Positions 1 to 11,457 of a stretch of 64,000 bases of DNA are shown here, piece by piece. The position numbers and the translations under genes are program-made. The number at the start of each line of letters is the position of its first letter. Positions within the stretch are counted from its first letter, which is position 1. Under the pieces are notes generated by a model. The model did no database searches. It saw only the letters and a list, made by a program, of their open reading frames with translations, and was not told the origin of the DNA. Source of the stretch: Gelidibacter salicanalis (GTDB lineage: Bacteria; Bacteroidota; Bacteroidia; Flavobacteriales; Flavobacteriaceae); NCBI RefSeq assembly GCF_007997285.1, contig NZ_VORX01000004.1:248001-312000 (forward strand), written 5' to 3'.

Positions 1-1818
1 AAAATAATTTAGATTGCAGTTTCTCAATTTCAAAACTTTAAGATTGCTAAGTTTGTCAATATTTAACTCATTGGGATCTATAGGATTGCCAGATAAGTGA
101 AGTTCCTCCAAATTAATTAATCTGCCTATTTTTTCGGGTAGATGTTGAATGGAGTTATCTGAAATATCAAGAATTTTTAAATGTTTTAAATCGAAAATCA
201 CCTCTGGTAAAAAGGTCAAACCCATGCCATTTAATGTTAGTGTGGTTTCTTTTTTATCTATATTATTTTGAATTAGTTTAACACAGGCCGCAAATGGGCT
301 AGCTATAAATCCGTTGAGGAAATTATCGTTTACTGATGATTTTCCAAACACAGATAACGTAGTTCTTTGACTAGAATTAAGAGAATCCATGTAAATATTT
401 ATGGCACTTATTAAATGTTGGTTAGTGATATTTTGTTCAGATAGATAGAGCACTTTAAAAAGGAATTTTGTGAAATATCCATGATCAGTGTCTTCTAATG
501 CCCATTGCGTATCCTTGGCCGCAGTTATGACAACTATATTTTTGGAGATTAAATCGGATGTTGCTTTTTTAATATTGTTTATTTCTTTAAAATCATCTCT
601 AATCAAATTATCTAAATGATATGAAAAATCAGTATCCAAGAGGAGCGTATAAGTACAATCGTTAGGGAATTTATTAATCTGCCTCAAAACTTCCAAAAGA
701 GAAAGCGTTGTAGAATCACTTAATATTAAGGCTTTGTCTTGTATATTTTGAATTATACTTTGAGGTTCAACATGTGATGCGATGTCATTATTTTTTAAAT
801 TATCAATAGAGCCACCTTGTCCAGAATAATAAAAAACAAAAGAGTCGCCACCTTTAATCTCCTTGAAAAGAATGTAGTCAAAATATTCTTGAATTTTATT
901 ATAGTTTGCATGTTCATTGATAAGAAGATGGGTTCTGCAAATATAACCTTCAGCTACATGCTCCTCTAAATAATCACGTATTGCAGTAGAATCATTAACT
1001 GCGGACCGCAGGCGAAGATTATCATAACTTGGATAGTCATTAATGCCCAAAATCAAAGCATGTAGGGTAGGGGTCTTAGATGTATTTGTCTTGATCCCAT
1101 CAAGGATTTTTTTCTTGATATTCGTGGGAAGTTTTATGGTGATCGTTTCTGAGGAATTATGATCTTGACTTAAAAAATCTTTAAGTTTCTCAATTTGAGG
1201 GCTGAAATTTTGTTTTGAATCTTGATCTAACTGCTGATATATATTTAAAAACTCAACCAGTTTTTTTTGTTCGACGGTCAGATTATTATGGTTAAGCACT
1301 TTCAAATAGTAACCCACGGCATTTTTTTGATCGTTGATGTTGTTGAGCCTATTAAATCTATTAACAATATTATGTGTAACGCGCTCTGCCTCAGCAATGG
1401 GATTTAAAATAATATTCCCCTCTATCCTGTAGGATTCAAGATGTTTTAAACTGGGAAAATGTTTTTTACATTCCCAGATGTAGGACAGCATAAAATTCCC
1501 AATTTCTTGAAGAATTTCATTTGCATTGTCCTTGTGCATCATTTTATTTCTCAATTTATCCTGGATGGTTGGGTGGATGATGAACGAGTTGTAACCTATA
1601 CGCTCAATTTCGGGTGATTGCAGTAAATCAGCACATGTAATAGCTCTCAGCTTGTATTTGTTGGTTTCCTCTTCAGGTTCAAATTTCTCAAAAATATTGA
1701 GGTATAGTTTATGGAGAATGTCAATATTGAACCAAGGGAGAATGGCGCCATAGCATGAGAAATTTTCCAATCGCGATTGGCGCTTATGATCTATATGTGG
1801 CATGCCTTGAGCGATCAT
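1..1818 (-). CDS. Caspase-fold protein with lost catalytic dyad and C-terminal leucine-rich repeats (partial)
   Basis: This frame stays open for 606 codons from the ATG at 1818 to the window edge, so the C-terminus is missing. Residues 1-250 are a helical region I do not recognise. Residues about 253-500 follow the caspase (peptidase C14) order: LHALILGINDYPSYDNLRLR, then a strand ending YYSGQGG, then TLLLDTDFSY. The catalytic His of YYSGHG is Gln334 and the Cys of DSC is replaced at Asp397, so it should be proteolytically dead. From about residue 527 there are leucine-rich repeats (LTLNGMGLTFLP, LKILDISDNSIQHLP, LEELHLSGNPI, LKVLKLRNCNL). The upstream vWA gene stops in the same frame one codon before this ATG, so it is the operon's last visible gene. 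I infer a sensor or decoy role through the LRR, not protease activity. The fold call is fairly firm; the role is speculative. Confidence 0.8.
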   Translation of the reverse strand, partial: MIAQGMPHIDHKRQSRLENFSCYGAILPWFNIDILHKLYLNIFEKFEPEEETNKYKLRAITCADLLQSPEIERIGYNSFIIHPTIQDKLRNKMMHKDNANEILQEIGNFMLSYIWECKKHFPSLKHLESYRIEGNIILNPIAEAERVTHNIVNRFNRLNNINDQKNAVGYYLKVLNHNNLTVEQKKLVEFLNIYQQLDQDSKQNFSPQIEKLKDFLSQDHNSSETITIKLPTNIKKKILDGIKTNTSKTPTLHALILGINDYPSYDNLRLRSAVNDSTAIRDYLEEHVAEGYICRTHLLINEHANYNKIQEYFDYILFKEIKGGDSFVFYYSGQGGSIDNLKNNDIASHVEPQSIIQNIQDKALILSDSTTLSLLEVLRQINKFPNDCTYTLLLDTDFSYHLDNLIRDDFKEINNIKKATSDLISKNIVVITAAKDTQWALEDTDHGYFTKFLFKVLYLSEQNITNQHLISAINIYMDSLNSSQRTTLSVFGKSSVNDNFLNGFIASPFAACVKLIQNNIDKKETTLTLNGMGLTFLPEVIFDLKHLKILDISDNSIQHLPEKIGRLINLEELHLSGNPIDPNELNIDKLSNLKVLKLRNCNLNYF

Positions 1819-1821
1819 GGT

Positions 1822-2979
1822 TTATATTGTAGGTTTTGCTTCATGAATGATTTTATGCAAACTTATATCGTCGGGATGACTCATGGGAATCATCATTTGA
1901 AGTCGCTTAGCGGTACAATCATTTAAATACTCAAAAGGAATTGGATTGATCCAATGCACAAAGTCTGAAAAACTTTTAAGATATTTCCATAATCTCACGG
2001 TTGCGGTCATTCGGTCCTTATTTACAATTCCTGAATGACCTCCAGCATCACTTAAAACAAAAAACCAAGTTTTGCTATTCCATTGGGGATTTTTAGAAAG
2101 CTCATTTTTAAAACTTCCAGCGGTTTTAAATTGATATTTCCCGTCAATATATTCTGGCAAATTATTAAAAACATAGTGCTCCACATGACAATGTGGAATT
2201 TGCCGTAAGCTTTCTTTAAAATTATCTTCAATAAATTCATAGGCCAACATAGACCCATTACGATCTGCCAATAAGACCACGTTGGAGTAACTGGCATCAT
2301 CAAATTCATAAGTAAGATCTATAATAAATCCTTTTTGAATGTACTCTATGACCATTTCTGGAATATCTAATCGGTCGGATATAACTTGTTCCGTGGTTTC
2401 CACTTTTCTTCTGAGACGTTGTGCAAAGTTTCGGACCTCAAATGGCATGATTGCTTTATCCGCTAACATAAATTTATGGTTTGGTCGGGTGAATTCAACA
2501 TCGTCGTCTGCGTTTTCTTTTTTGATATCCCGGAGTACCAATTCAAAATCGATCATACCTTCCTCTTTCCTAGTGTCTTCTAATATGTTTTCAGGCTTCT
2601 TTTCGTTTATTAGGTCTTTATCTGGAGAATTGGAAACCTGGGTAGCATCTTGATTATGTAAAACTTCTGGCGTGTTTTCCTTTTCGTTGGGTAACACTTT
2701 CTCAAACAGCACTTCTTTATCAAAAAACAGATTAAAATAGCGATCATATTCTAGCTCGTATTGAGGATTGTTGAGCCAAAATATTTTAGTAAAATTCAAT
2801 AAACTGCTGCGTCCCTCTAATAGATGTTTTTTTTCGCCACTACTTTTGGAAGTATTCACAAGAGGGATTTTATGAATGGCTTCGATTAGATAAAAATATT
2901 GATCGATAGCCAAAGGAGGGCTGAACTTATTTTTTATAAATTCGAAAAATCCCCATAAAGGTGCGACCATTTTATCCAT
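1822..2979 (-). CDS. von Willebrand factor A (CoxE-like) protein, partner of the MoxR ATPase
   Basis: A 385-residue cytosolic protein with an unrecognised N-terminal half, a charged low-complexity linker (about 95-165) and a C-terminal vWA-like domain (about 215-385). The metal-site motif is VVLLADRNGS: Asp239 and Ser243 are kept but the central Ser of DxSxS is Asn. A second acidic loop, FVLSDAGGHSG, holds Asp311, and VHWINPIPFEYL resembles the 'WLNP' end of CoxE-like vWA proteins. It starts one base after the MoxR gene stop, so the two are probably translated together. MoxR and vWA proteins are known to work in pairs, the vWA protein acting as adaptor for AAA+-driven remodelling. Here the pair probably gates the neighbouring caspase and gasdermin proteins; this is inferred from operon context. 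Confidence 0.72.
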   Translation of the reverse strand: MDKMVAPLWGFFEFIKNKFSPPLAIDQYFYLIEAIHKIPLVNTSKSSGEKKHLLEGRSSLLNFTKIFWLNNPQYELEYDRYFNLFFDKEVLFEKVLPNEKENTPEVLHNQDATQVSNSPDKDLINEKKPENILEDTRKEEGMIDFELVLRDIKKENADDDVEFTRPNHKFMLADKAIMPFEVRNFAQRLRRKVETTEQVISDRLDIPEMVIEYIQKGFIIDLTYEFDDASYSNVVLLADRNGSMLAYEFIEDNFKESLRQIPHCHVEHYVFNNLPEYIDGKYQFKTAGSFKNELSKNPQWNSKTWFFVLSDAGGHSGIVNKDRMTATVRLWKYLKSFSDFVHWINPIPFEYLNDCTAKRLQMMIPMSHPDDISLHKIIHEAKPTI

Positions 2980-2980
2980 G

Positions 2981-3985
2981 TCATGAATTTAATTTTAGGG
3001 CAATTTTTTGAAGCTGTGCATCATCAACTAAGTGTTCGAACTTATCACCGTGATGCATCACTCTGAAGACCAGAATTTTTAGCCAATCTAACATTTCACT
3101 TACGGAAGGTGGTTTACTACCGGTTTCTTCTTTTTTTAAGGCAACATACTTGTCCACGAATAAGGCTAGTTGATCTTTTGAAAGTTCGATGAATTCATGT
3201 TCACCCAAATCACTGTAAAACTCTTCCATTTTGACTAGGGCAATTTTATTTAAAAATTCTTTATTAAAACTCGGGATATAATAATACAAACAACGCCTTA
3301 AGAATGCCGGCGGTAGTTCTCTTTCATTATTGCTGGTTATAAAAATTAATGGAATTAATTCTCGTGGTGCTTGGATATAGGTGTCATTTTTTTCATTGAT
3401 TTTAAAGCGCATTTCATCCAATTCCAGCAAGAGGTCATTTGGAAAATCAATATCACCCTTATCAATTTCATCAATTAGCAATATGGTTTTTTTTCCCATT
3501 TGGGAACCCGCGGTAAAGGCTTTGCCCAATGCTTCAAGCGTTATGTAATTGTCCGGATTTGATGCTCTTTTACTTGCTTGTATATCTGAAGAAGAAATGG
3601 TAGCATCACGCATTCTGCCCACATGATCAAAAATATACCCGCCATCTTTAGCTTTACTTTTTGACTTGATATGCCATTCAAAATAATATTTATTGGCTTC
3701 TTCTTTATAAAAATAGGATGCTAAGGCTTGAGCAAGTTTGGTTTTTCCCGATCCTGGTTCTCCCTTTATTAAAAGTGGCCGTCCCGTAACTATGGCAGCA
3801 TTGACCGCAATAGCCAATTCTCTGCTTAACATATAGGCGCTGACAGGTTTGGATTTGCCTTCGAGTTCATTATAATTTAATTTTCGGTGCTCAAAGTCAT
3901 AGGTAATATCATACTCTTTGATATTAATTCTAGGAATTTCTATCTCAAGTACGCCATTTAAGTCAAGAAGTTCAAGTGTCTTCAT
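2981..3985 (-). CDS. MoxR-family AAA+ ATPase
   Basis: A 334-residue ATPase of typical MoxR size. Walker A is GEPGSGKT (residues 75-82), Walker B is ILLIDEIDKGD with Asp172-Glu173, and the sensor region reads FITSNNERELPPAFLRRC, with arginines that fit the sensor and arginine-finger positions. After the ATPase core comes a small helical lid containing PPSVSEMLDWLKIL, a common MoxR C-terminal signature. It lies 9 bp after the CHAT protease gene and 1 bp before the vWA gene. MoxR proteins hydrolyse ATP to remodel or activate partner proteins. In this operon the likely partners are the vWA protein and the caspase-like proteins. Family call is firm; the defence role is inferred. Confidence 0.88.
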   Translation of the reverse strand: MKTLELLDLNGVLEIEIPRINIKEYDITYDFEHRKLNYNELEGKSKPVSAYMLSRELAIAVNAAIVTGRPLLIKGEPGSGKTKLAQALASYFYKEEANKYYFEWHIKSKSKAKDGGYIFDHVGRMRDATISSSDIQASKRASNPDNYITLEALGKAFTAGSQMGKKTILLIDEIDKGDIDFPNDLLLELDEMRFKINEKNDTYIQAPRELIPLIFITSNNERELPPAFLRRCLYYYIPSFNKEFLNKIALVKMEEFYSDLGEHEFIELSKDQLALFVDKYVALKKEETGSKPPSVSEMLDWLKILVFRVMHHGDKFEHLVDDAQLQKIALKLNS

Positions 3986-3994
3986 ACGTATCAG

Positions 3995-5857
3995 TTAAAT
4001 TCGGATAATTTTTTTTGGTGAGATGTTATAGGTGTTGCATACAAATTCTATTACTGACGACGGACAGCACGTTATATATTGATCTAGATTTATTGAGTTT
4101 GCAATGCGCTTCACACTTTGTTCAATTTCATACGTGCTATTTTCTAAATTGTGCCTATCGCACCATCTTTTAATGGACTCAGCGTTAACGGGTTCAGGAT
4201 TTTCAAAATTTTTAATATATGCCCGATTTAGACGGGGGTTCAATTGAAATCCATTGTCCTCCTGTAAAAAGAAAAAATAGGCAGGTTTTATTTCTACATC
4301 TGGGCTTTCTTTAAATTCAATAATCTTTTCAATTTCCAATAAAAAGTTTTTACAGATTTCTGTCCATTTTTGTAAAGGAATATTTCGGTTTTTAAAAATA
4401 AAAATAGCTTCCTCGTCCAAGAGACTCATAAATTTACCTCTTAAACCTTGTTCGTTAATGCCATATGTGTGCTCAATTTCCTTTAAAAGTGTAGAGTTAA
4501 ACATTTCATCTGGATCGCTATAAAAGCTATCCACAACTATCACAGGTCTTTTATAGGAGAATTTCTTTTTAATATTGTTAATGATAAAATTGATCAGGTT
4601 TTCATTGAAAAATCGACCCGTATATATCCTAAGATATTTGTCGTTATATTGAGCGAAATCGGAGTATAAAAAGTTCTTTGACGGAACCTCAAAATCTAAT
4701 GTGATTTGAGTTCTTAAATAGTAGTCTAAGTCATTTGGTAGAAGTTCTGATAAGAATTTATTATTTGCCAAAAGTGGATTATTCTCTAACAATTCAGATG
4801 GTTTAGCCTTGAACTTGTAAATCTTCGTGTTTTTATTTATTTCAGATAATATCTCTGGATTGTTAATGACTTTATTCAAATCGATATTATCCTGAGCACA
4901 AATTAAAACTCGATAATGAGTTATTTCCCAATTAATTTCCTGCAAATGTTCTTTAATTGCCTCTGGCATTTTATTGTCTTGGTCAGTGATAATCAGCAAT
5001 AAAATGGGTTCATGCATCATAAACGCCATTTTATCTTGGTTTAGGAGTTCAATTTCATTTTCAGGAATAACAATGAGTTCTAATCTTTCATTAAGATCAT
5101 TGGCTACAAAGTCTTCTTTAAACTTTTTAATATAATTAGTGTCATTAAACCAAGTGAGCACGACCGGTCTATTGTTGTCTATATCTTCCATTTTTTTTAA
5201 GAAATTGGGAGGTGCCAAATAATGTTGCTTGAATCTTTCTTTTAAAAAAACAATTTGCAGTTTGTTGATTTGAGATTCTTCCACCTCGCTTTTGGCGCCC
5301 TCTCCTCGAGATAATGTAATGGAATTATCAGATGATCCGCGTTCAGAAACGGCAATCAATGCCTGTGCAAATGCCAGTGAAAAAGTTAAGCTATTTTCCA
5401 AAAGACGCTGGTAAAATTCAACTTGAAAGTTTATTGCCCAATCATTGCCAATGTCGTTATGTTCTTTAGTTCCAATGACAATAGGAATATTGTGTTTGTT
5501 GACCAATTGTACTAAATCTGCCGAACGACATGACGAGAAAAAACAAAATTTGATTGACTCGTGTTCCAGTAATTTTGCCAGTTCATCATTTTTAATAATC
5601 CAATCCACATAAGGAATTCCTTGAACTGTGCCATGGCTACTGAAATGCAGGTATAAATCATGTCTATTTTTATGTTTAGTTAGTTTCTGTAAATAGTCGA
5701 ATAACACATCCTTGTTAGGACAAAATTGGACATCAATGTCAACACCAGTACCCGTATTATTTTTATTAAGAATTACTTTATAAAATTGTTTATAATCACT
5801 GTTATTTATTTCAGCATTGTCTTGCGAACCGTTATATAAAACAATGAGCTTTTTCAT
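3995..5857 (-). CDS. CHAT-domain (caspase-like) protease with large C-terminal regulatory region
   Basis: A 620-residue protein. The N-terminal 190 residues form a CHAT/caspase-like fold: LYLHFSSHGTVQG supplies catalytic His75 and KFCFFSSCRSADL supplies Cys110, the spacing expected for CHAT proteases. It continues IPIVIGTKEHNDIGNDWAIN, as CHAT domains do. Residues about 225-620 resemble a STAND-like or adaptor region (RPVVLTWFNDTNYIKKF; RPVIVVDSFYS) but show no P-loop, so it may be a degenerate STAND module of the kind described in vWA-MoxR-associated proteins. The start is 2 bp after the stop of a 42-codon ORF and the stop is 9 bp before moxR. It probably cleaves a partner in this operon, perhaps the gasdermin, when licensed by MoxR-vWA. 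Protease call is good; substrate and C-terminal assignment are inference. Confidence 0.75.
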   Translation of the reverse strand: MKKLIVLYNGSQDNAEINNSDYKQFYKVILNKNNTGTGVDIDVQFCPNKDVLFDYLQKLTKHKNRHDLYLHFSSHGTVQGIPYVDWIIKNDELAKLLEHESIKFCFFSSCRSADLVQLVNKHNIPIVIGTKEHNDIGNDWAINFQVEFYQRLLENSLTFSLAFAQALIAVSERGSSDNSITLSRGEGAKSEVEESQINKLQIVFLKERFKQHYLAPPNFLKKMEDIDNNRPVVLTWFNDTNYIKKFKEDFVANDLNERLELIVIPENEIELLNQDKMAFMMHEPILLLIITDQDNKMPEAIKEHLQEINWEITHYRVLICAQDNIDLNKVINNPEILSEINKNTKIYKFKAKPSELLENNPLLANNKFLSELLPNDLDYYLRTQITLDFEVPSKNFLYSDFAQYNDKYLRIYTGRFFNENLINFIINNIKKKFSYKRPVIVVDSFYSDPDEMFNSTLLKEIEHTYGINEQGLRGKFMSLLDEEAIFIFKNRNIPLQKWTEICKNFLLEIEKIIEFKESPDVEIKPAYFFFLQEDNGFQLNPRLNRAYIKNFENPEPVNAESIKRWCDRHNLENSTYEIEQSVKRIANSINLDQYITCCPSSVIEFVCNTYNISPKKIIRI

Positions 5858-5859
5858 TT

Positions 5860-5988
5860 TTATAATTCAATTAATAAGGGATATTCTCTATTGTTATCGA
5901 TCTCTAATCTCTCGAGTAAATGCATGTCATCTTTAGTGAGGTTTTCAAAACTTTTTTGCTCACCTCTGGCAGATTTTAAATTTTTCAT
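5860..5988 (-). CDS. 42-residue peptide between gasdermin and CHAT protease
   Basis: A short ORF fills what would otherwise be a 130-bp gap in a tightly packed operon. Its ATG (5988-5986) overlaps the gasdermin stop as TGATG, and its TAA ends 2 bp before the CHAT start codon, exactly how coupled genes are spaced. The product begins MKNLKSARGEQKSFENLTKD and ends NNREYPLLIEL; it is charged, probably helical in the middle (DDMHLLERLEI), and has no membrane segment. No family is recognised. It could be an inhibitor, an adaptor, or a protease substrate tag split from a neighbour. It could also be an unexpressed chance ORF, although the spacing argues against that. Confidence 0.55.
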   Translation of the reverse strand: MKNLKSARGEQKSFENLTKDDMHLLERLEIDNNREYPLLIEL

Positions 5989-6707
5989 CAATTGCCGCGT
6001 GAGAACTTGCCCGTTTGTGGATCAATAATCAGTTCCAGAGCACTGAATGCAAAGCTCAAATCATAAGGGGCCTCAAAGGCAACAACATTTTCGGCAGTTT
6101 TGTTCACTTTCACATTGATGTTGAGACCAGAAATAGCTTCTTGAATTAATGGAACTTCAACATTGACACCAATTTCGGATTCTGAAAATGTACTTATCGA
6201 AAAATTATTGGATACCATGACGTCAGTAATAAGGCCCAATTGTACCTTTTTATCTTTAATCGCTTTACTTAGAATGAAATTATCAGGATCTCCTAGTACA
6301 TTATTTTGAGAAAGAATCATCCCAAATTGAAGTGGGTCAATATATCTTCGCCGAACGTTTTGAAAGGAGAATGCCATCTTCTTTGATTTCTTAAAAGCGG
6401 CACCTACTGAAGCTGGATCTACCCCCAATACTTTAAGAAAACCACTTAAAATTTGAAATCCAGTTTCAAAATCTGTTATTTTAGATTGTTTATCTGAAAC
6501 AGATGCTACTGGCTCTTCTTGTATGGGAACATCGTGTGGAAAGCCATTTTTTACCAAATATTTGAATTCTCCTAAATAGGATGGTTTACTTCGGTCAACT
6601 TCCAGCATACAAAGCGGTTGGATCCTAGCTTCAGGAGCTTTTAAAGGGTTAGCACCAAAATGATCCCTGATGTGATCAGTAATGTCGTTTTTGCAAATTC
6701 GTCCCAT
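5988..6707 (-). CDS. Bacterial gasdermin-like pore-forming protein
   Basis: A 239-residue protein without signal peptide. It matches the bacterial gasdermin pattern as I know it: a near-N-terminal cysteine (Cys5 in MGRICKND; bacterial gasdermins carry an acylated Cys here); an early ARIQPLCMLEV...YLGEFKYLV segment; AAFKKSKKMAFSFQNV then IDPLQFGMIL; VQLGLITDVMVSNNFSI; GVNVEVPLIQEA; and VVAFEAPYDLSFAFSALEL near the end. Length is close to the usual 240-280. About 12 residues (IDPQTGKFSRGN) follow the last strand and would be the short autoinhibitory tail that proteases remove. It lies 18 bp after an active-looking caspase gene, the typical partner. Activated gasdermins assemble membrane pores that kill the cell. 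Assignment rests on motif memory, not alignment. Confidence 0.72.
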   Translation of the reverse strand: MGRICKNDITDHIRDHFGANPLKAPEARIQPLCMLEVDRSKPSYLGEFKYLVKNGFPHDVPIQEEPVASVSDKQSKITDFETGFQILSGFLKVLGVDPASVGAAFKKSKKMAFSFQNVRRRYIDPLQFGMILSQNNVLGDPDNFILSKAIKDKKVQLGLITDVMVSNNFSISTFSESEIGVNVEVPLIQEAISGLNINVKVNKTAENVVAFEAPYDLSFAFSALELIIDPQTGKFSRGN

Positions 6708-6725
6708 GATTTATGTATTTTATGA

Positions 6726-9635
6726 CTAATTAATACTTGAGAATTCTTTCATTTTTTTTAGAAAATTCCCAGCAACCTTACCATAACCAATATTGTTGGG
6801 ATGGATTTCATCCATCCATTCATGGTAGGCTACTGTTTTTCGGTTGTTGACATATCCAACAAAGTTAAATTCCTCCTCGTACGCTTTTAATATATCATTA
6901 AATCGGTCCACTAGAAAATGAATGACACGATCTCTCTCTATAGGATTATCAATACCCGCTCCGATCATATATTTATTGGCCCATCCCTTTTCAATAATTT
7001 TCTTATCCCGATCGCCCGGAATGTAATCATAACCATGTATGAAAATTTTCACATTGGGCACTAGCAATTTAATTTTTGAAAAAAACAGGCGGTAACTTTC
7101 ATCCAAAAAATTCATTTTTGCATCCAAAATGTCTTCTTTAATATAGTCTTTGACAGACTGAACATTACTGACGTTTTTACGAAGCATGCTTCGTATCTCT
7201 GAACCCAAAACATCATTCCCACCACCACTAATTAATACAAAATCAGGTTTTATCTCTCCAACTTTAGTAATGAGTTCATTGTTCTTGATGTAATCGGCCA
7301 CATCGTCGCCAGCATCAGCCAGACTGAACACAGCGTATTCATTCATGATATAATCCAAAGTATCCTTTACACCTGGTCTCGGATATAAAAACCATGAATC
7401 TCCCTCCGCAACTACAATATTACCTCCGGATATTCGCTGTTTTCTAAATCGCCTTCTTCTAATGGTATTATATATCTTATTGAGCTGTTTTACAACCCAA
7501 CTATCTGTGGCTTTTTCTGCTGATTGAAATTTATTTTGTTTTAATTGGATTTCAAATTCTTTTCCGTTCCAGAAATCCTCAAAATAAAGTTCTTTGATGA
7601 AGGGCGCGAGCTCTTCGCTTTCTAAATATTCATCGAGAAATGTTTTAAGTCCAGCCGTAATAACGTTAAACGTTGGATTTTTTAATTCAATACGTGTAAT
7701 GCAGGTTCCCCATCTATTTCTGATTTCTTGAAGTTCTTCTGATGATCCCTCTCCTTTAGCTTTATTTTCGAAGGCATTCCTTAAGGGATGAGTAATGGTT
7801 AATGGCGGCGATAAGCTAGGTTGCAGAAAGGAGTGGTTTTGTATAGAAGCGGAAAAATCTTCATAATTATTGATAATGAATTTATAATAAAACCATTCTT
7901 CGCTCCAGTTATAAACTTCCTTATAAGGATCAAAATAGACTTTCGCGATAGATGGGTCTTTTTCTTTGTGATCATAAAATAATTTACTATCGCCTTGCGT
8001 GCCTTTAGGTGATAACTCTATAACATTCCCATCAAAAGGTTTTGAAGTAATTGAAAGATCTGAATTAAGAGTCAGCACTCCAATAAACAGCTTTTCATGA
8101 CTTATATTCCGCACTCTAATTTGAAAGGTGCCGAAAAGATTGGTGTCTTCTTTTTCTCTGGTTTCCGCATTGATGGTTAGAATGCCATTGGTAATATCGC
8201 TCCAACCACCATCTCCAATATTAGCTTCGACTTTAATTGGCGAGATTTTGAAATCCATACTCGGATTCTCAAGCGAATAAAAATGGTTCCATTTTATAAA
8301 TGACAAAAGTTGATTGGACAGTTCGGCTTCCAATTTGATAGAATCATAGTCAATCTGTTTGGAAAGTGGTTGGAATTCTGTTTCTGGCATAGAAAAGTAG
8401 ACCATATTATTAAAGCAATTTACAAAAAATCGAGCTTCTTCTTTAGCCACCAATTCAACACCCTCATATTGTTTTAAAACTTTTGCTACGGCATCGGCAA
8501 TTTCCTGATCATCATCTACATTATTAATATACAGCTCTAAGGGATCATAAGTGCTCCATGGCGTATTAGCCGGATAACTTTTATTGAAATCCATTTTATT
8601 AATGGCGGTCATAGGTAGCTCGAGTATTGCATATTCTGCATGTACTGTTTTTACTTTGCCCACAATCTCCTCGCCATCTAGTATTACTATAATTTTTGCT
8701 CCTTCTTTGATACCAAGCAACATGCCTTTATTATAGAGCCAACCCAGTTTTTTATTATTACTAACCTGCCCATCCATTAATTTAACACCCTCCGGATTGA
8801 AATTTAACCAAGACGAATTTTGACTAAGTTTACCTTCGCCCTGAACGGTGACTTTGGGTGTTTGTTTTTTAGAAGTAATTTTTAAGAGGGTCATTTTGGA
8901 CCATCTTGCAATATCTAAATAGCTGAGGTTTCCATTAGTGGCATTTAGAAGTTGGAGCAAATAATTAGTAAAAACACCTCCTTTACTATCCTCCCAAGAC
9001 GATTCACTCGAAAGGCAGGCCGCCAAATGGATACTATTTTTGTAGGGGATATCCAGAGTTAAGTTGCCATGATTTCGAATTTCAACAGATTTGTCGCCGG
9101 CAAATAAAAATTCTTTGTACGGTCTGGGTGCAAAAACACCACTTAACCGTCTTATGGCACCATTATCGTTGTTTGATTCTTCAACATAGGATCTCACAAT
9201 ATTGCCCGAATGACACGAGTCAATTACACTAATCAGATGAGGATTATGAGTCATGTTGTGGAAGAGATAGCGCAATTCCTTATTAGCAAGAAGATCTGAT
9301 GATGTGGTATTGGTTTGAGAATAAGGTACCAAACAATCCAAAGTGCCGTCATGTTCTTCGGGAAATAGACCATCGGTACTCTCCAATGCGCCATGGCCAC
9401 TGTAATAAAAGAAGGCTACATCGTCATCCTTTGCTTTATAAAGGTGAGATTTTATTTTGTCTACAATGGCAGTTTTGGTTGCTTGATCATCATGGAGCGT
9501 TTCTATTAAAACCTCCTCACATCTGTCTTTTATAGAGTTTAGATACGCTTTTAATTTGTTGGAATCATTAACGCATTCATTGAGTGGATTACCCGAATAC
9601 TTATCTATCCCCACCAGTAGAGCAAATACTTTCAT
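6726..9635 (-). CDS. Caspase (peptidase C14) fused to C-terminal SGNH/GDSL hydrolase
   Basis: A 969-residue cytosolic protein, probably first gene of the operon. Residues 1-270 are an intact caspase-like domain: FALLVGIDKY start, FFYYSGHG with His81, and SVIDSCHSG with Cys141. Residues 270-735 are a long mixed region with beta-rich parts (FGTFQIRVRNISHEKLFIGVL, about 501-521) resembling domains attached to bacterial caspases. A basic stretch (RRRRFRKQR, 727-735) precedes an SGNH hydrolase at about 738-969: VAEGDSW (Ser747), DAGDDV (Gly776), ISGGGND (Asn807) and DEIHPN (Asp942, His945), all four family blocks. SGNH enzymes are esterases or lipases. The protein could therefore cut the adjacent gasdermin and also attack lipid or acyl groups. 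Fusion is seen directly; substrates are inferred. Confidence 0.85.
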   Translation of the reverse strand: MKVFALLVGIDKYSGNPLNECVNDSNKLKAYLNSIKDRCEEVLIETLHDDQATKTAIVDKIKSHLYKAKDDDVAFFYYSGHGALESTDGLFPEEHDGTLDCLVPYSQTNTTSSDLLANKELRYLFHNMTHNPHLISVIDSCHSGNIVRSYVEESNNDNGAIRRLSGVFAPRPYKEFLFAGDKSVEIRNHGNLTLDIPYKNSIHLAACLSSESSWEDSKGGVFTNYLLQLLNATNGNLSYLDIARWSKMTLLKITSKKQTPKVTVQGEGKLSQNSSWLNFNPEGVKLMDGQVSNNKKLGWLYNKGMLLGIKEGAKIIVILDGEEIVGKVKTVHAEYAILELPMTAINKMDFNKSYPANTPWSTYDPLELYINNVDDDQEIADAVAKVLKQYEGVELVAKEEARFFVNCFNNMVYFSMPETEFQPLSKQIDYDSIKLEAELSNQLLSFIKWNHFYSLENPSMDFKISPIKVEANIGDGGWSDITNGILTINAETREKEDTNLFGTFQIRVRNISHEKLFIGVLTLNSDLSITSKPFDGNVIELSPKGTQGDSKLFYDHKEKDPSIAKVYFDPYKEVYNWSEEWFYYKFIINNYEDFSASIQNHSFLQPSLSPPLTITHPLRNAFENKAKGEGSSEELQEIRNRWGTCITRIELKNPTFNVITAGLKTFLDEYLESEELAPFIKELYFEDFWNGKEFEIQLKQNKFQSAEKATDSWVVKQLNKIYNTIRRRRFRKQRISGGNIVVAEGDSWFLYPRPGVKDTLDYIMNEYAVFSLADAGDDVADYIKNNELITKVGEIKPDFVLISGGGNDVLGSEIRSMLRKNVSNVQSVKDYIKEDILDAKMNFLDESYRLFFSKIKLLVPNVKIFIHGYDYIPGDRDKKIIEKGWANKYMIGAGIDNPIERDRVIHFLVDRFNDILKAYEEEFNFVGYVNNRKTVAYHEWMDEIHPNNIGYGKVAGNFLKKMKEFSSIN

Positions 9636-9870
9636 AATGTTGTATTTTAAATTAAGTGGGGAAGAGCAAGCAGGTCAAAATGCCTTATGACGTTTGCACA
9701 CAGCAATTTAAAACAATAATCACACACAAAAAAGCTTTTTATTATTTATCTGTAAGGCTATAGGATAAATAATTTTTGTAGAAAATCATTAGAAATCCGA
9801 CTTGTTTTGAATTACCAATTTTTAACAAACGAGATGATAATATTGTGTTGGTAAAGAAAGGGTTTTCCTG
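9636..9870. other. Leader region upstream of the caspase-gasdermin operon
   Basis: AT-rich DNA directly upstream of the first operon gene on the minus strand. No open frame of note and no convincing TAnnTTTG promoter was found by eye. Because the gene order is tight and all on one strand, the operon promoter should lie here or upstream of the NusG-like gene. The stretch 10141-10315, between the decayed DUF2264 fragment and the NusG-like gene, likewise shows nothing recognisable. Confidence 0.3.
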
Positions 9871-10140
9871 CTAATTGACAGGGTTACGAAGTTTTTTGAT
9901 GGGAATGCATGGCTTACTGATGGTTTATATGGTCATCAACCAGAGATAGTTGAAGCTTAATTTTCTACAGGAAGTCTTTATTTATGTGCAGAGGCTTATC
10001 TATTGCTTGGATTACTGGCCAAAGACCAAATATGGAAAAGAAAAAATAAGGATTGGAAGGCAACATAGCTTTTGGGGAAACAAACCCATAACTATATTAT
10101 TCATTAAGAAAGTACGACAGTTGAAAGGTTCATAAGTTAT
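9871..10140 (+). pseudogene. Decayed C-terminal fragment of a DUF2264-like protein
   Basis: In one plus-strand frame the DNA reads RVTKFFDGNAWLTDGLYGHQ, then PEIVEA, a TAA stop, FSTGSLYLCAEAYLLLGLL, AKDQIWKRKNKDWKAT, a TAG stop, LLGKQTHNYIIH and another stop. The sequence remains protein-like across three in-frame stops, which marks a pseudogene. The pattern DG-x-GY/H...GSlYl...LpLGLp...FW...dW fits the C-terminal end of DUF2264 proteins as I remember them. No start or upstream domain is present, so only the 3' end of an ancestral gene survives. It lies antisense between the caspase operon and the NusG-like gene, suggesting past rearrangement. Identity is moderate; the decayed state is clear. 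Confidence 0.45.
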
Positions 10141-10315
10141 TGAGAACATTTAGCAACTATGCAAACACTAGTTATTAAGGACCACTTATTATTTGTTAAA
10201 AATAAAAATCAACGGCATTACAACTCGATTGCAAGGTTAAATCACGACTATTTATAAACTATGGATAAGATTGGAATAGATTCACGTTACTATCATAAAT
10301 CAGCTGTATGATATT

Positions 10316-10858
10316 CTATATATTTGCACTGCTTTTCGTAAATTTCTGGGGAGACAAATACATGCTCGGCAAATATGCTGTGATATAATGTCGGATAGAT
10401 TCAATTCTAACTATAATTTTACGCTTATTATTGACTTTAATGACTTCGCAATCTAGACCATTTAAGGGTCCATAAGAGATTCTCATTTTTTGACCTTTAC
10501 TAGGAAGGTTGTTTTCGACCTTAATCTCCGAAATGTTTTCAATGTTTAATAATGCTTTTATGTGAAAAATTTCAGTAGCCCTTATGACTGCATATTCGTT
10601 ACCAAATTTTAGATATTTTATAACCCCCTCTGTAGACAATGCATGATAAAATTCTTTTCGAGAGAGGGCGTGAACGAATATATACCTTGGGAAAAGAGGA
10701 GTCCATATTTGCTTCTTACGATCACTCCACACTTTGATAGATTTTATCAATGGCAAGAAGACTTCTATATTTTTTTCTTGCAATAATTGTTCTACTTTTT
10801 TTTCATGCTGATGTTTAACATAGAGTACGTGCCAATGAAGAAGACTAAGAGATTGCAT
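10316..10858 (-). CDS. NusG-family transcription antiterminator (UpxY/RfaH-like paralogue)
   Basis: A 180-residue protein with an N-terminal NGN domain and a C-terminal KOW-type domain. The NGN part has the specialised-NusG pattern: WHVLYVKHQHEKKVEQLL, IEVFLPL, IKVWSDRKKQIWTPLFPRYI. The C-terminal part reads PSKGQKMRISYGPLNGLDCEVIKVN. Such UpxY-type paralogues help RNA polymerase read long operons, usually capsule or O-antigen loci; none is present here. It is an orphan pointing toward the 9.6-kb caspase-gasdermin operon, about 0.7 kb away, and could serve it. A MITE is inserted 14 bp before its start codon, which may have cut it off from its own promoter. Family call firm; target unknown. 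Confidence 0.85.
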   Translation of the reverse strand: MQSLSLLHWHVLYVKHQHEKKVEQLLQEKNIEVFLPLIKSIKVWSDRKKQIWTPLFPRYIFVHALSRKEFYHALSTEGVIKYLKFGNEYAVIRATEIFHIKALLNIENISEIKVENNLPSKGQKMRISYGPLNGLDCEVIKVNNKRKIIVRIESIRHYITAYLPSMYLSPQKFTKSSANI

Positions 10859-10872
10859 AGTATAGATTTTAT

Positions 10873-11099
10873 ATCATTGTTGTCCGATAAAGAATCAAGA
10901 CCGCTGCGCTGTTAGAATAAAGAATTAAGACTTGTTTGCAACTAACTGACAAACAACGATCATTTAAATTAAAATAGCACATTCCCTCTCGGTAGAAACA
11001 GTTTCTAAAATGCAAGGTCTCATTTCGGAAATCTTCTAATGTCCCTTGCTTTAAATGAGTTTGTTAATTTATTATTTATTTTTATCGGACACTAATGAT
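10873..11099. mobile_element. MITE-like element, copy A (227 bp)
   Basis: The ends are inverted repeats: the left reads ATCATTGTTGTCCGATAAA and the right, reverse-complemented, ATCATTAGTGTCCGATAAA. A TTTAT direct repeat flanks both sides (10868-10872 and 11100-11104), as expected for a 5-bp target duplication. There is no transposase gene. A near-identical copy in the same orientation lies at 38042-38289. It is inserted 14 bp upstream of the NusG-like start codon. It is probably a non-autonomous derivative of an insertion sequence; the parent family is not identified. Confidence 0.8.
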
Positions 11100-11291
11100 T
11101 TTATATAGTATTTAAGTGATTTTTTTTGGATACACTTATAGCCAAAAAAATTTAATAGTTGCTATTAATCACTAAGCACCATCGTAGAATAAATTCTCAA
11201 TGCTTATGTATTGTGGAGATAATATAAATGTAAACATTTTTTTTTAATTCAGTGTAAAATGGTGGAAGCATTTAATTATCAGGCATTAACA

Positions 11292-11323
11292 TTTGTCGAA
11301 TTTAAAAAAATAACGTACTTTTA
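11292..11323 (+). promoter_or_regulatory. Candidate promoter for the eCIS operon
   Basis: TTTG at 11292-11295 and TACTTTTA at 11316-11323, with 20 bases between, resemble the Bacteroidota TTTG / TAnnTTTG promoter (last base A, not G). It lies about 135 bp before the sheath start. The surrounding 11100-11457 holds no other recognisable feature; an upstream ATG at 11371 in the sheath frame was not chosen as start. Confidence 0.35.
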
Positions 11324-11457
11324 AATTATATGTGAGAACTTCTACTCATTTATTTTGGTGCCTTTTTTAAATGGTATTCAAAGCGGCGAAGCCTTATTCC
11401 CACTACTTAATTGTATGTTACTTTTCATTTTATAATCTTAATTTAAAATCTCTTATT

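Follow-up and report, generated by a model that had tools for sequence, protein, structure and literature searches.

A gasdermin operon merged with a MoxR-vWA module in Gelidibacter salicanalis

RESULTS

Gene content and layout of the operon

We analysed a window of 64,000 nucleotides of the Gelidibacter salicanalis genome (contig NZ_VORX01000004.1, positions 248,001 to 312,000), whose left 9.6 kb form a tight minus-strand unit in which neighbouring genes overlap by 1 base or are separated by gaps of at most 18 bases. Read from the 5' end, the unit comprises genes for a caspase-SGNH protein, a gasdermin, a 42-residue open reading frame (ORF), a CHAT-iSTAND protein, a MoxR ATPase, a vWA protein and a dead-caspase-LRR protein. 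Every protein of the original prediction was located on this strand where it had been reported, and the catalytic pairs His81/Cys141 and His75/Cys110 occupy the positions given there.

6726..9635, minus strand: caspase-SGNH protein, 969 residues (Pfam C14, PADLOC caspase)
5988..6707, minus strand: gasdermin core, 239 residues (NCBIfam, PADLOC, PDB)
5860..5988, minus strand: 42-residue ORF, the gasdermin C-terminal tail in another frame (gapless alignment with the L021 and L089 gasdermins)
3995..5857, minus strand: CHAT protease domain followed by a C-terminal P-loop-less AAA/STAND-like domain (CHAT-iSTAND), 620 residues
2981..3985, minus strand: MoxR-type AAA+ ATPase, 334 residues (AAA_5; Walker A and B)
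1822..2979, minus strand: predicted CoxE-like vWA protein, 385 residues (orthologue match below cutoff, and motifs)
1..1818 plus 705 bases past the left edge of the window, minus strand: dead caspase, leucine-rich repeats and CHAT-like end, 840 residues in total

Beyond the last of these genes lies a 117-residue ORF without a significant family match. Promoter and terminator scans of positions 9500-11400 gave no signal above shuffled sequences. A NusG-type protein (10316-10858, minus strand; PF02357, 1e-19) is encoded in line with the operon, 680 bases upstream, and could govern this long operon; its gene had no homologue at E 1e-3 among the ORFs of the loci compared. To the left of the window, a 1786-residue protein (L002:2254-7614) with DUF7379/LCAT-like hydrolase regions and a CHAT domain represents a further caspase-type protein near the operon, and it is followed by a peptidoglycan-binding-domain protein. 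Positions 11371-35825 (plus strand) hold a cluster for an extracellular contractile injection system (eCIS), with tail sheath, AAA ATPase, eCIS_core and astacin-like metalloprotease recognised by Pfam, and tube and baseplate-like proteins recognised by eye.

The caspase-SGNH protein

The first protein is composed of a caspase domain (residues ~1-265, with His81 and Cys141), a middle region and an SGNH hydrolase domain (~740-960, with Ser747, Asn807, Asp942 and His945). The caspase matched Pfam Peptidase_C14 (6.8e-22) and the PADLOC caspase model (2.6e-33), while the SGNH part matched GDSL_2 below the cutoff in the window (5.2e-6) and above it in the Runella orthologue (2.4e-9). The model of an EACC1-associated caspase (NF047832) reached 42.1 bits, short of its cutoff of 140. 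The six catalytic residues recur without exception in the 39 full-length proteins aligned, namely the window copy and those of 38 of the 45 loci introduced below; seven loci (L057-L061, L063 and L064) match the query in part and were excluded from both the residue count and the tree. This protein is presumed to combine an executor protease with an envelope or lipid esterase. One Runella executor (L019:8585-12436) carries an N-acetylmuramoyl-L-alanine amidase domain (amidase_2), a caspase and an SGNH hydrolase in a single chain.

The 239-residue protein is a bacterial gasdermin

Sequence comparison identifies the 239-residue protein as a bacterial gasdermin, as had been predicted, and thereby as a relative of the pore former by which infected human cells are killed. 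It matched NCBIfam NF051890 at 206.7 bits (cutoff 100), PADLOC bGSDM at 192.5 bits (2.2e-57) and the gasdermin structures 8sl0 and 7n51 in the PDB at ~1e-18 (7n51, E 1.7e-18), and gave no match in Pfam. Furthermore, when the AlphaFold model of its 281-residue orthologue from L021 (pLDDT 68.3) was compared with the PDB, all 12 matches with E <=0.001 were gasdermins. A cysteine near the N-terminus, Cys5, is invariant in the 13 aligned gasdermins, the window copy included; in most bacterial gasdermins, an N-terminal cysteine is the palmitoylation site. The gene is flanked by proteases, with the caspase-SGNH gene 18 bases upstream and the CHAT gene downstream, and the gasdermin core would act as an inner-membrane pore former.

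In the window, an ORF of its own encodes the gasdermin tail

The 42-residue ORF, formerly taken for a micro-peptide gene in its own right, pairs without gaps with the last 42 residues of the gasdermins of L021 (45% identity) and L089 (43%), and we therefore regard it as the gasdermin tail rather than as a separate gene. An end consisting of PLLI followed by acidic and hydrophobic residues is common to 14 of 14 tails. In all 13 aligned relatives (12 plus L089, whose start is missing at a contig edge), core and tail form a single ORF; the window copy alone is split, so that its gasdermin has no tail in the same chain. Here core and tail lie in different frames, with the core stop codon overlapping the tail start codon.

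We compared the identity of the tail with that of the core. For the window, the ratio was 0.75 against L021 and 0.74 against L089, versus 0.83 for the intact pair L021-L089. Against two Aquimarina proteins, the window gave 0.51 and 0.54, and L021 and L089 gave 0.54-0.81. As judged from these sequences, the tail does not appear clearly decayed, and a slight relaxation is possible. The L021 model provides no confident position for the tail, its pLDDT being below 50 from residue 239 on.

The CHAT-iSTAND protein

The window copy of the CHAT protein had no Pfam CHAT match, and it was the Runella orthologue that upheld its assignment as a CHAT protease (CHAT, 5.9e-10). Each of the 9 proteins compared has both His75 and Cys110. 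A second, C-terminal AAA/STAND-like domain, lacking a Walker A motif, had been missed in the original prediction. We did not observe a Pfam iSTAND match in the window, Runella or other CHAT-iSTAND proteins checked, nor was an iSTAND entry listed in the fold comparison of the model, which has low confidence (pLDDT 57.6) and a Z barely above the level that the tool regards as a common arrangement; the missing entry does not count against an iSTAND fold. Fold matches to dehydroquinases and to sugar-binding proteins were set aside as reflecting Rossmann-like arrangements of a widespread kind, and Foldseek alone ranked NtrX, Rif2 and a glycosyltransferase first. With low confidence, the C-terminal domain may be iSTAND-like.

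MoxR, vWA and dead-caspase-LRR proteins

The MoxR protein matched AAA_5 (8.7e-9) and, at 62 bits against a cutoff of 475, the MadB family. It has the Walker A motif GEPGSGKT and the Walker B motif LLIDEID, and no other P-loop ATPase was found in the operon. Both Walker motifs were present in 12 of 12 MoxR proteins and VMAP-like N-terminal motifs in 0 of 12, as searched with regular expressions written after the published description, with L100 possibly lacking its N-terminus at a contig edge. The operon thus holds an active-looking MoxR AAA+ ATPase devoid of VMAP-type N-terminal motifs. Neither the window vWA protein nor that of L099 matched Pfam; the predicted vWA assignment finds some backing in the Runella orthologue, which matched VWA_CoxE below the cutoff (2.1e-4), and in the D-x-x-G-S-M and S-D motifs, which all 5 proteins compared retain.

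The last gene extends beyond the window. At full length (L002:11296-13818) it encodes 840 residues matching C14 (1.4e-10) and LRR_8 (2.4e-16), with neither the catalytic His nor the catalytic Cys in the window copy. The caspase fold, the LRRs and the missing catalytic pair agree with the dead caspase-LRR originally described; the 705 further bases and a CHAT-like C-terminal end had escaped that description. This end is similar to the Runella CHAT protein (1.9e-5) and, by eye, lacks the usual second histidine. Among nine homologues, two have no alignable caspase region and none of the other seven keeps both residues, with L028 and L131 retaining the histidine. The Lewinella protein at this place (L028; 1439 residues, with a caspase fold) has no LRR according to Pfam.

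The catalytic residues kept in the caspase-SGNH and CHAT proteins, and lost in the caspase-LRR protein, therefore point to two active-looking proteases and one pseudo-protease. No Pfam trypsin match was obtained in the operon at E up to 1.

The same order recurs in two other genomes

The caspase-SGNH proteins of the window and of the Runella locus were scanned as a pair against one genome per GTDB 220 species, yielding 45 loci. A gasdermin ORF directly follows the caspase-SGNH gene in 12 of them, L021 from a Saprospiraceae metagenome-assembled genome (MAG) and 11 loci from Aquimarina.

Relatives with the full combination are confined to two fragmented Bacteroidota MAGs, whose caspase proteins are 51-52% identical to that of the window. 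In the Saprospiraceae MAG (G910), the L021 contig runs from caspase-SGNH through gasdermin and CHAT-iSTAND to MoxR at its end, and a second contig (L099) carries the end of MoxR, vWA and dead-caspase-LRR, so that MoxR spans two contig ends. In a Cytophagales MAG (G909), the closest locus (L020, 52%) breaks ~27 residues into the gasdermin, and a second contig (L089) starts inside the gasdermin and continues with CHAT, MoxR and vWA. Assuming adjacency across the contig breaks, three genomes share the order of the window, G909 up to vWA. The three caspase-SGNH proteins form one clade with SH-aLRT 100 in a quick 44-row tree, which has long branches elsewhere and in which the L020 label depends on the two-contig assignment.

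Since the same order is found in two MAGs, the combination of a gasdermin with a MoxR-vWA module is no accident. Gene content and recurring order thus bear out the predicted merger, which is shared by three lineages; these are the only three genomes with the full combination, and two of them are MAGs broken inside the operon. The suggested survey of other Bacteroidota neighbourhoods accordingly returned neighbours co-conserved in two further genomes, next to a gasdermin whose fold is supported.

Parts of the operon occur apart and recombined

Two Runella loci (L042 and L131) encode caspase-SGNH, CHAT-iSTAND, MoxR, vWA and LRR proteins and no gasdermin, with a CHAT and nSTAND1 pair upstream of the same executor in L042. 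The same five genes, again without a gasdermin, are present in Lewinella (L028), and the genomes of L028 and L042 (G911 and G914) gave no gasdermin match anywhere. Two loci from the genus of Runella aurantiaca (L132 and L133) show the switch without the executor in the stretch read. On the other hand, the 11 Aquimarina loci combine caspase-SGNH, gasdermin and CHAT-type proteins with a large STAND protein, of the nSTAND1-WD40 type in 4 of 4 checked. In G912 (L031 and L100), caspase-SGNH, CHAT and switch are accompanied by a gasdermin on another contig that lacks them. A MoxR/CHAT/caspase-SGNH locus (L134) includes a 1607-residue protein (L134:5094-9917) joining vWA to LRR-Roc-COR-TIR, and L041 and L046 have MoxR genes that are more distantly related (119-122 bits).

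Gasdermins were found in 7 of 395 genomes of an order sample and 3 of 395 of a phylum sample, the own genome included. Two of the seven order-sample matches are weak (7.8e-4 and 1.7e-4). Two of the four other matches were fetched with wider surroundings (L016 and L017) and are 233-residue gasdermins of another type; their stretches contain no homologue of the other operon proteins, with L017 ending ~250 bases past the gasdermin. In the family of Runella aurantiaca, 10 of 150 genomes have a gasdermin. Among loci from nine of these ten, three have a caspase-SGNH neighbour and L078 and L077 a CHAT-like one, with CHAT plus STAND in L079, and none of the nine shows MoxR or vWA in its stretch. Two of these genomes (G834 and G878) bear a MoxR-vWA switch elsewhere. 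The two strongly matching gasdermin loci examined in the genus Runella (L080 and L081) had no MoxR-vWA in the stretch. At L080:6943-10537, the gasdermin adjoins an LRR-Roc-COR (ROCO) protein, and L081 is similar by length and start.

A single-sequence search with the vWA protein detected 2 of 390 genomes, the own included. In a profile search at E 0.001, the family of Runella aurantiaca gave matches in 48 of 150 genomes and the class in 11 of 375, falling to 5 and 2 (own included), respectively, below 1e-50. The remaining profile matches, mostly to the central vWA region only, are probably general vWA proteins. Viral contigs yielded 39 candidate stretches and 0 relatives. No similar operon was found there or on plasmids, the one plasmid record being from Gloeothece at 23% identity; this plasmid gasdermin homologue (L011:12004-12960, 318 residues) lies ~5 kb from type III-B CRISPR genes.

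The executor is thus found with MoxR-vWA or with STAND, and with or without a gasdermin. These findings are most simply read as one executor cassette that is combined with various exchangeable switch modules, the gasdermin being an optional executor part. The merger is real and yet not entirely isolated: caspase-SGNH homologues are also found beside just one of its two halves.

DISCUSSION

The operon brings together parts of several known systems. Bacterial gasdermin-protease systems were reportedly described by Johnson et al. 2022. With those represented by PDB 7n50-7n52, the window shares the fold, the N-terminal cysteine, the short tail (in its relatives) and an adjacent caspase-like protease. 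The window operon differs in that its protease and an SGNH hydrolase make up one protein, its tail has an ORF of its own and a CHAT-iSTAND/MoxR/vWA/LRR switch comes next. In the CARD-NLR gasdermin systems (Wein et al. 2025, as described in PMC13236601), an ATPase-controlled protease activates the gasdermin. In contrast, the window operon has no NLR-like P-loop ATPase and no Pfam trypsin, its ATPase being MoxR and its proteases caspase and CHAT.

The iSTAND-type MoxR-vWA ternary system (Kaur et al. 2020, PMC7159879) shares with the window operon a MoxR without VMAP motifs and an inactive caspase; its CoxE-like vWA protein, and its third component uniting a caspase-type peptidase with a P-loop-less STAND-like domain, have putative counterparts here. 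The window operon additionally has individual genes for a gasdermin and a caspase-SGNH protein, and gasdermin is never mentioned in PMC7159879 (0 occurrences). The paper also reports that caspases in MoxR-vWA (VMAP) systems can be inactive and that caspases can be fused to iSTAND. The Aquimarina loci (L022 and ten others) have a homologous executor cassette in the same order, whereas a STAND protein replaces MoxR-vWA-LRR and the gasdermin is one chain. Among the matches listed in open-licence papers, we found neither a gasdermin in a MoxR-vWA operon nor a two-chain bacterial gasdermin. Two of these papers contain both gasdermin and MoxR: PMC10907252, with gasdermin in its reference list only, and a review on mycobacterial cell death (PMC12519786). 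PMC9612521 has a figure of a Runella zeae gasdermin operon.

We consider that the operon probably constitutes a regulated cell-suicide system of the abortive-infection type. From the observed gene content, order, catalytic residues and separate tail ORF, we build a model in which trigger, order of activation, substrates, pores and phage defence are all putative. MoxR, vWA, dead-caspase-LRR and CHAT-iSTAND would together act as sensor and switch in the manner of a MoxR-vWA ternary system. Once a trigger is sensed, probably by way of the LRR protein, MoxR-vWA would remodel and license the CHAT-iSTAND protease, which may activate caspase-SGNH or act beside it. One of these proteases would then remove the gasdermin C-terminal tail. 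The freed core would open inner-membrane pores and the SGNH hydrolase attack lipids or the envelope, as a holin-endolysin-like pair; PMC9612521 draws this analogy for gasdermin operons with lysozymes or amidases. The signalling order first proposed, from LRR/vWA sensing through MoxR licensing and protease to pore, is reasonable as a prediction. LRRs are not a constant feature of the protein encoded by the last gene, the Lewinella homologue having none by Pfam, so that their role as sensor is only a guess.

The tail deserves separate consideration. According to PMC9612521, a C-terminal peptide of ~20 residues keeps known bacterial gasdermins inactive, and a neighbouring caspase-like protease cuts ~20 residues from the C-terminus. 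The 42-residue tail is presumably autoinhibitory too, in which case the tail in the window genome would have to hold the core in trans, or else the operon would be disarmed. With no tail in cis, the core might otherwise be constitutively active, or the locus broken. Either the window copy reflects a recent frame change or an assembly error, or its gasdermin is inhibited in trans by a co-translated peptide. We give close to an even chance to the view that this operon is decaying or disarmed, a recent frame change (real or in the assembly) having detached the tail, and that the system works in relatives only; this concerns the copy, and is compatible with a cell-suicide function, which concerns the system. 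That core and tail are one ORF in all 13 aligned relatives and split only in the window speaks in its favour. However, neither core nor tail is truncated, and in length the tail equals those of L021 and L089; the chain is broken where core meets tail, at a stop and a start codon that overlap, and the reading frames of the other genes are intact; the tail-to-core ratios are 0.75 and 0.74, against 0.83 for the intact pair, which would allow a slight relaxation; and an unrestrained core should be counter-selected. As the break sits at a domain boundary and leaves both halves complete, a two-chain gasdermin stays in play. We tentatively propose, as a possibility somewhat short of even, that core and tail are made separately by termination-reinitiation and join after synthesis, with a switch that releases or destroys a 42-residue inhibitor acting in trans instead of cutting a linker. 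CHAT, the caspase or a MoxR-vWA remodeller might, just as tentatively, release or destroy this inhibitor, making the two chains a toxin-antitoxin-like pair under a MoxR-vWA ternary system.

Other explanations concern the system as a whole. The operon adjoins the eCIS cluster, with the NusG-like gene alone between them, and could serve as a lysis module that frees injection particles by killing the producer, for which a CARD-NLR-like system for gene transfer agents in Caulobacter offers a precedent (PMC13236601). We find this very unlikely, given that 13 window eCIS proteins, compared with the ORFs of the loci (flanks of ~10-12 kb at most, often shorter), had as their sole match outside the sheath loci, the window's own among these, a 641-residue AAA protein in the solitary-gasdermin locus L016. 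Furthermore, a homologue of the sheath is present in 5 of 8 other genomes of the genus, with 37-41% identity over the best segments, and 0 of 8 matched the window gasdermin. MoxR-vWA might instead be a maturation chaperone for caspase-SGNH, with no role in sensing, like metal-insertion pairs: the Runella vWA orthologue resembles CoxE, with a match below the cutoff, and cofactor insertion is the task of established MoxR-vWA pairs such as NorQ-NorD. Yet caspase-SGNH is paired with STAND and has no adjacent MoxR in the 11 Aquimarina loci, and so needs no dedicated chaperone nearby, while L132 and L133 have a MoxR-vWA unit without caspase-SGNH in the stretch; we regard this role as improbable. That two independent systems merely adjoin seems hardly credible to us: each half does occur without the other, but within the operon the gasdermin gene is enclosed by those of the two proteases, and this interdigitated order recurs in three genomes.

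The distribution of this family amounts to a natural swap experiment: homologous caspase-SGNH/gasdermin executors are joined to MoxR-vWA-LRR in certain Bacteroidota and to STAND proteins in Aquimarina, and MoxR-vWA is also found without a gasdermin. What turns on bacterial gasdermins is described as an open question in PMC9612521. The role in conflict systems predicted for MoxR-vWA in 2020 becomes testable, with gasdermin cleavage and membrane leakage as read-out. If functional, a two-chain gasdermin would represent a cleavage-independent way of restraining and releasing a gasdermin.
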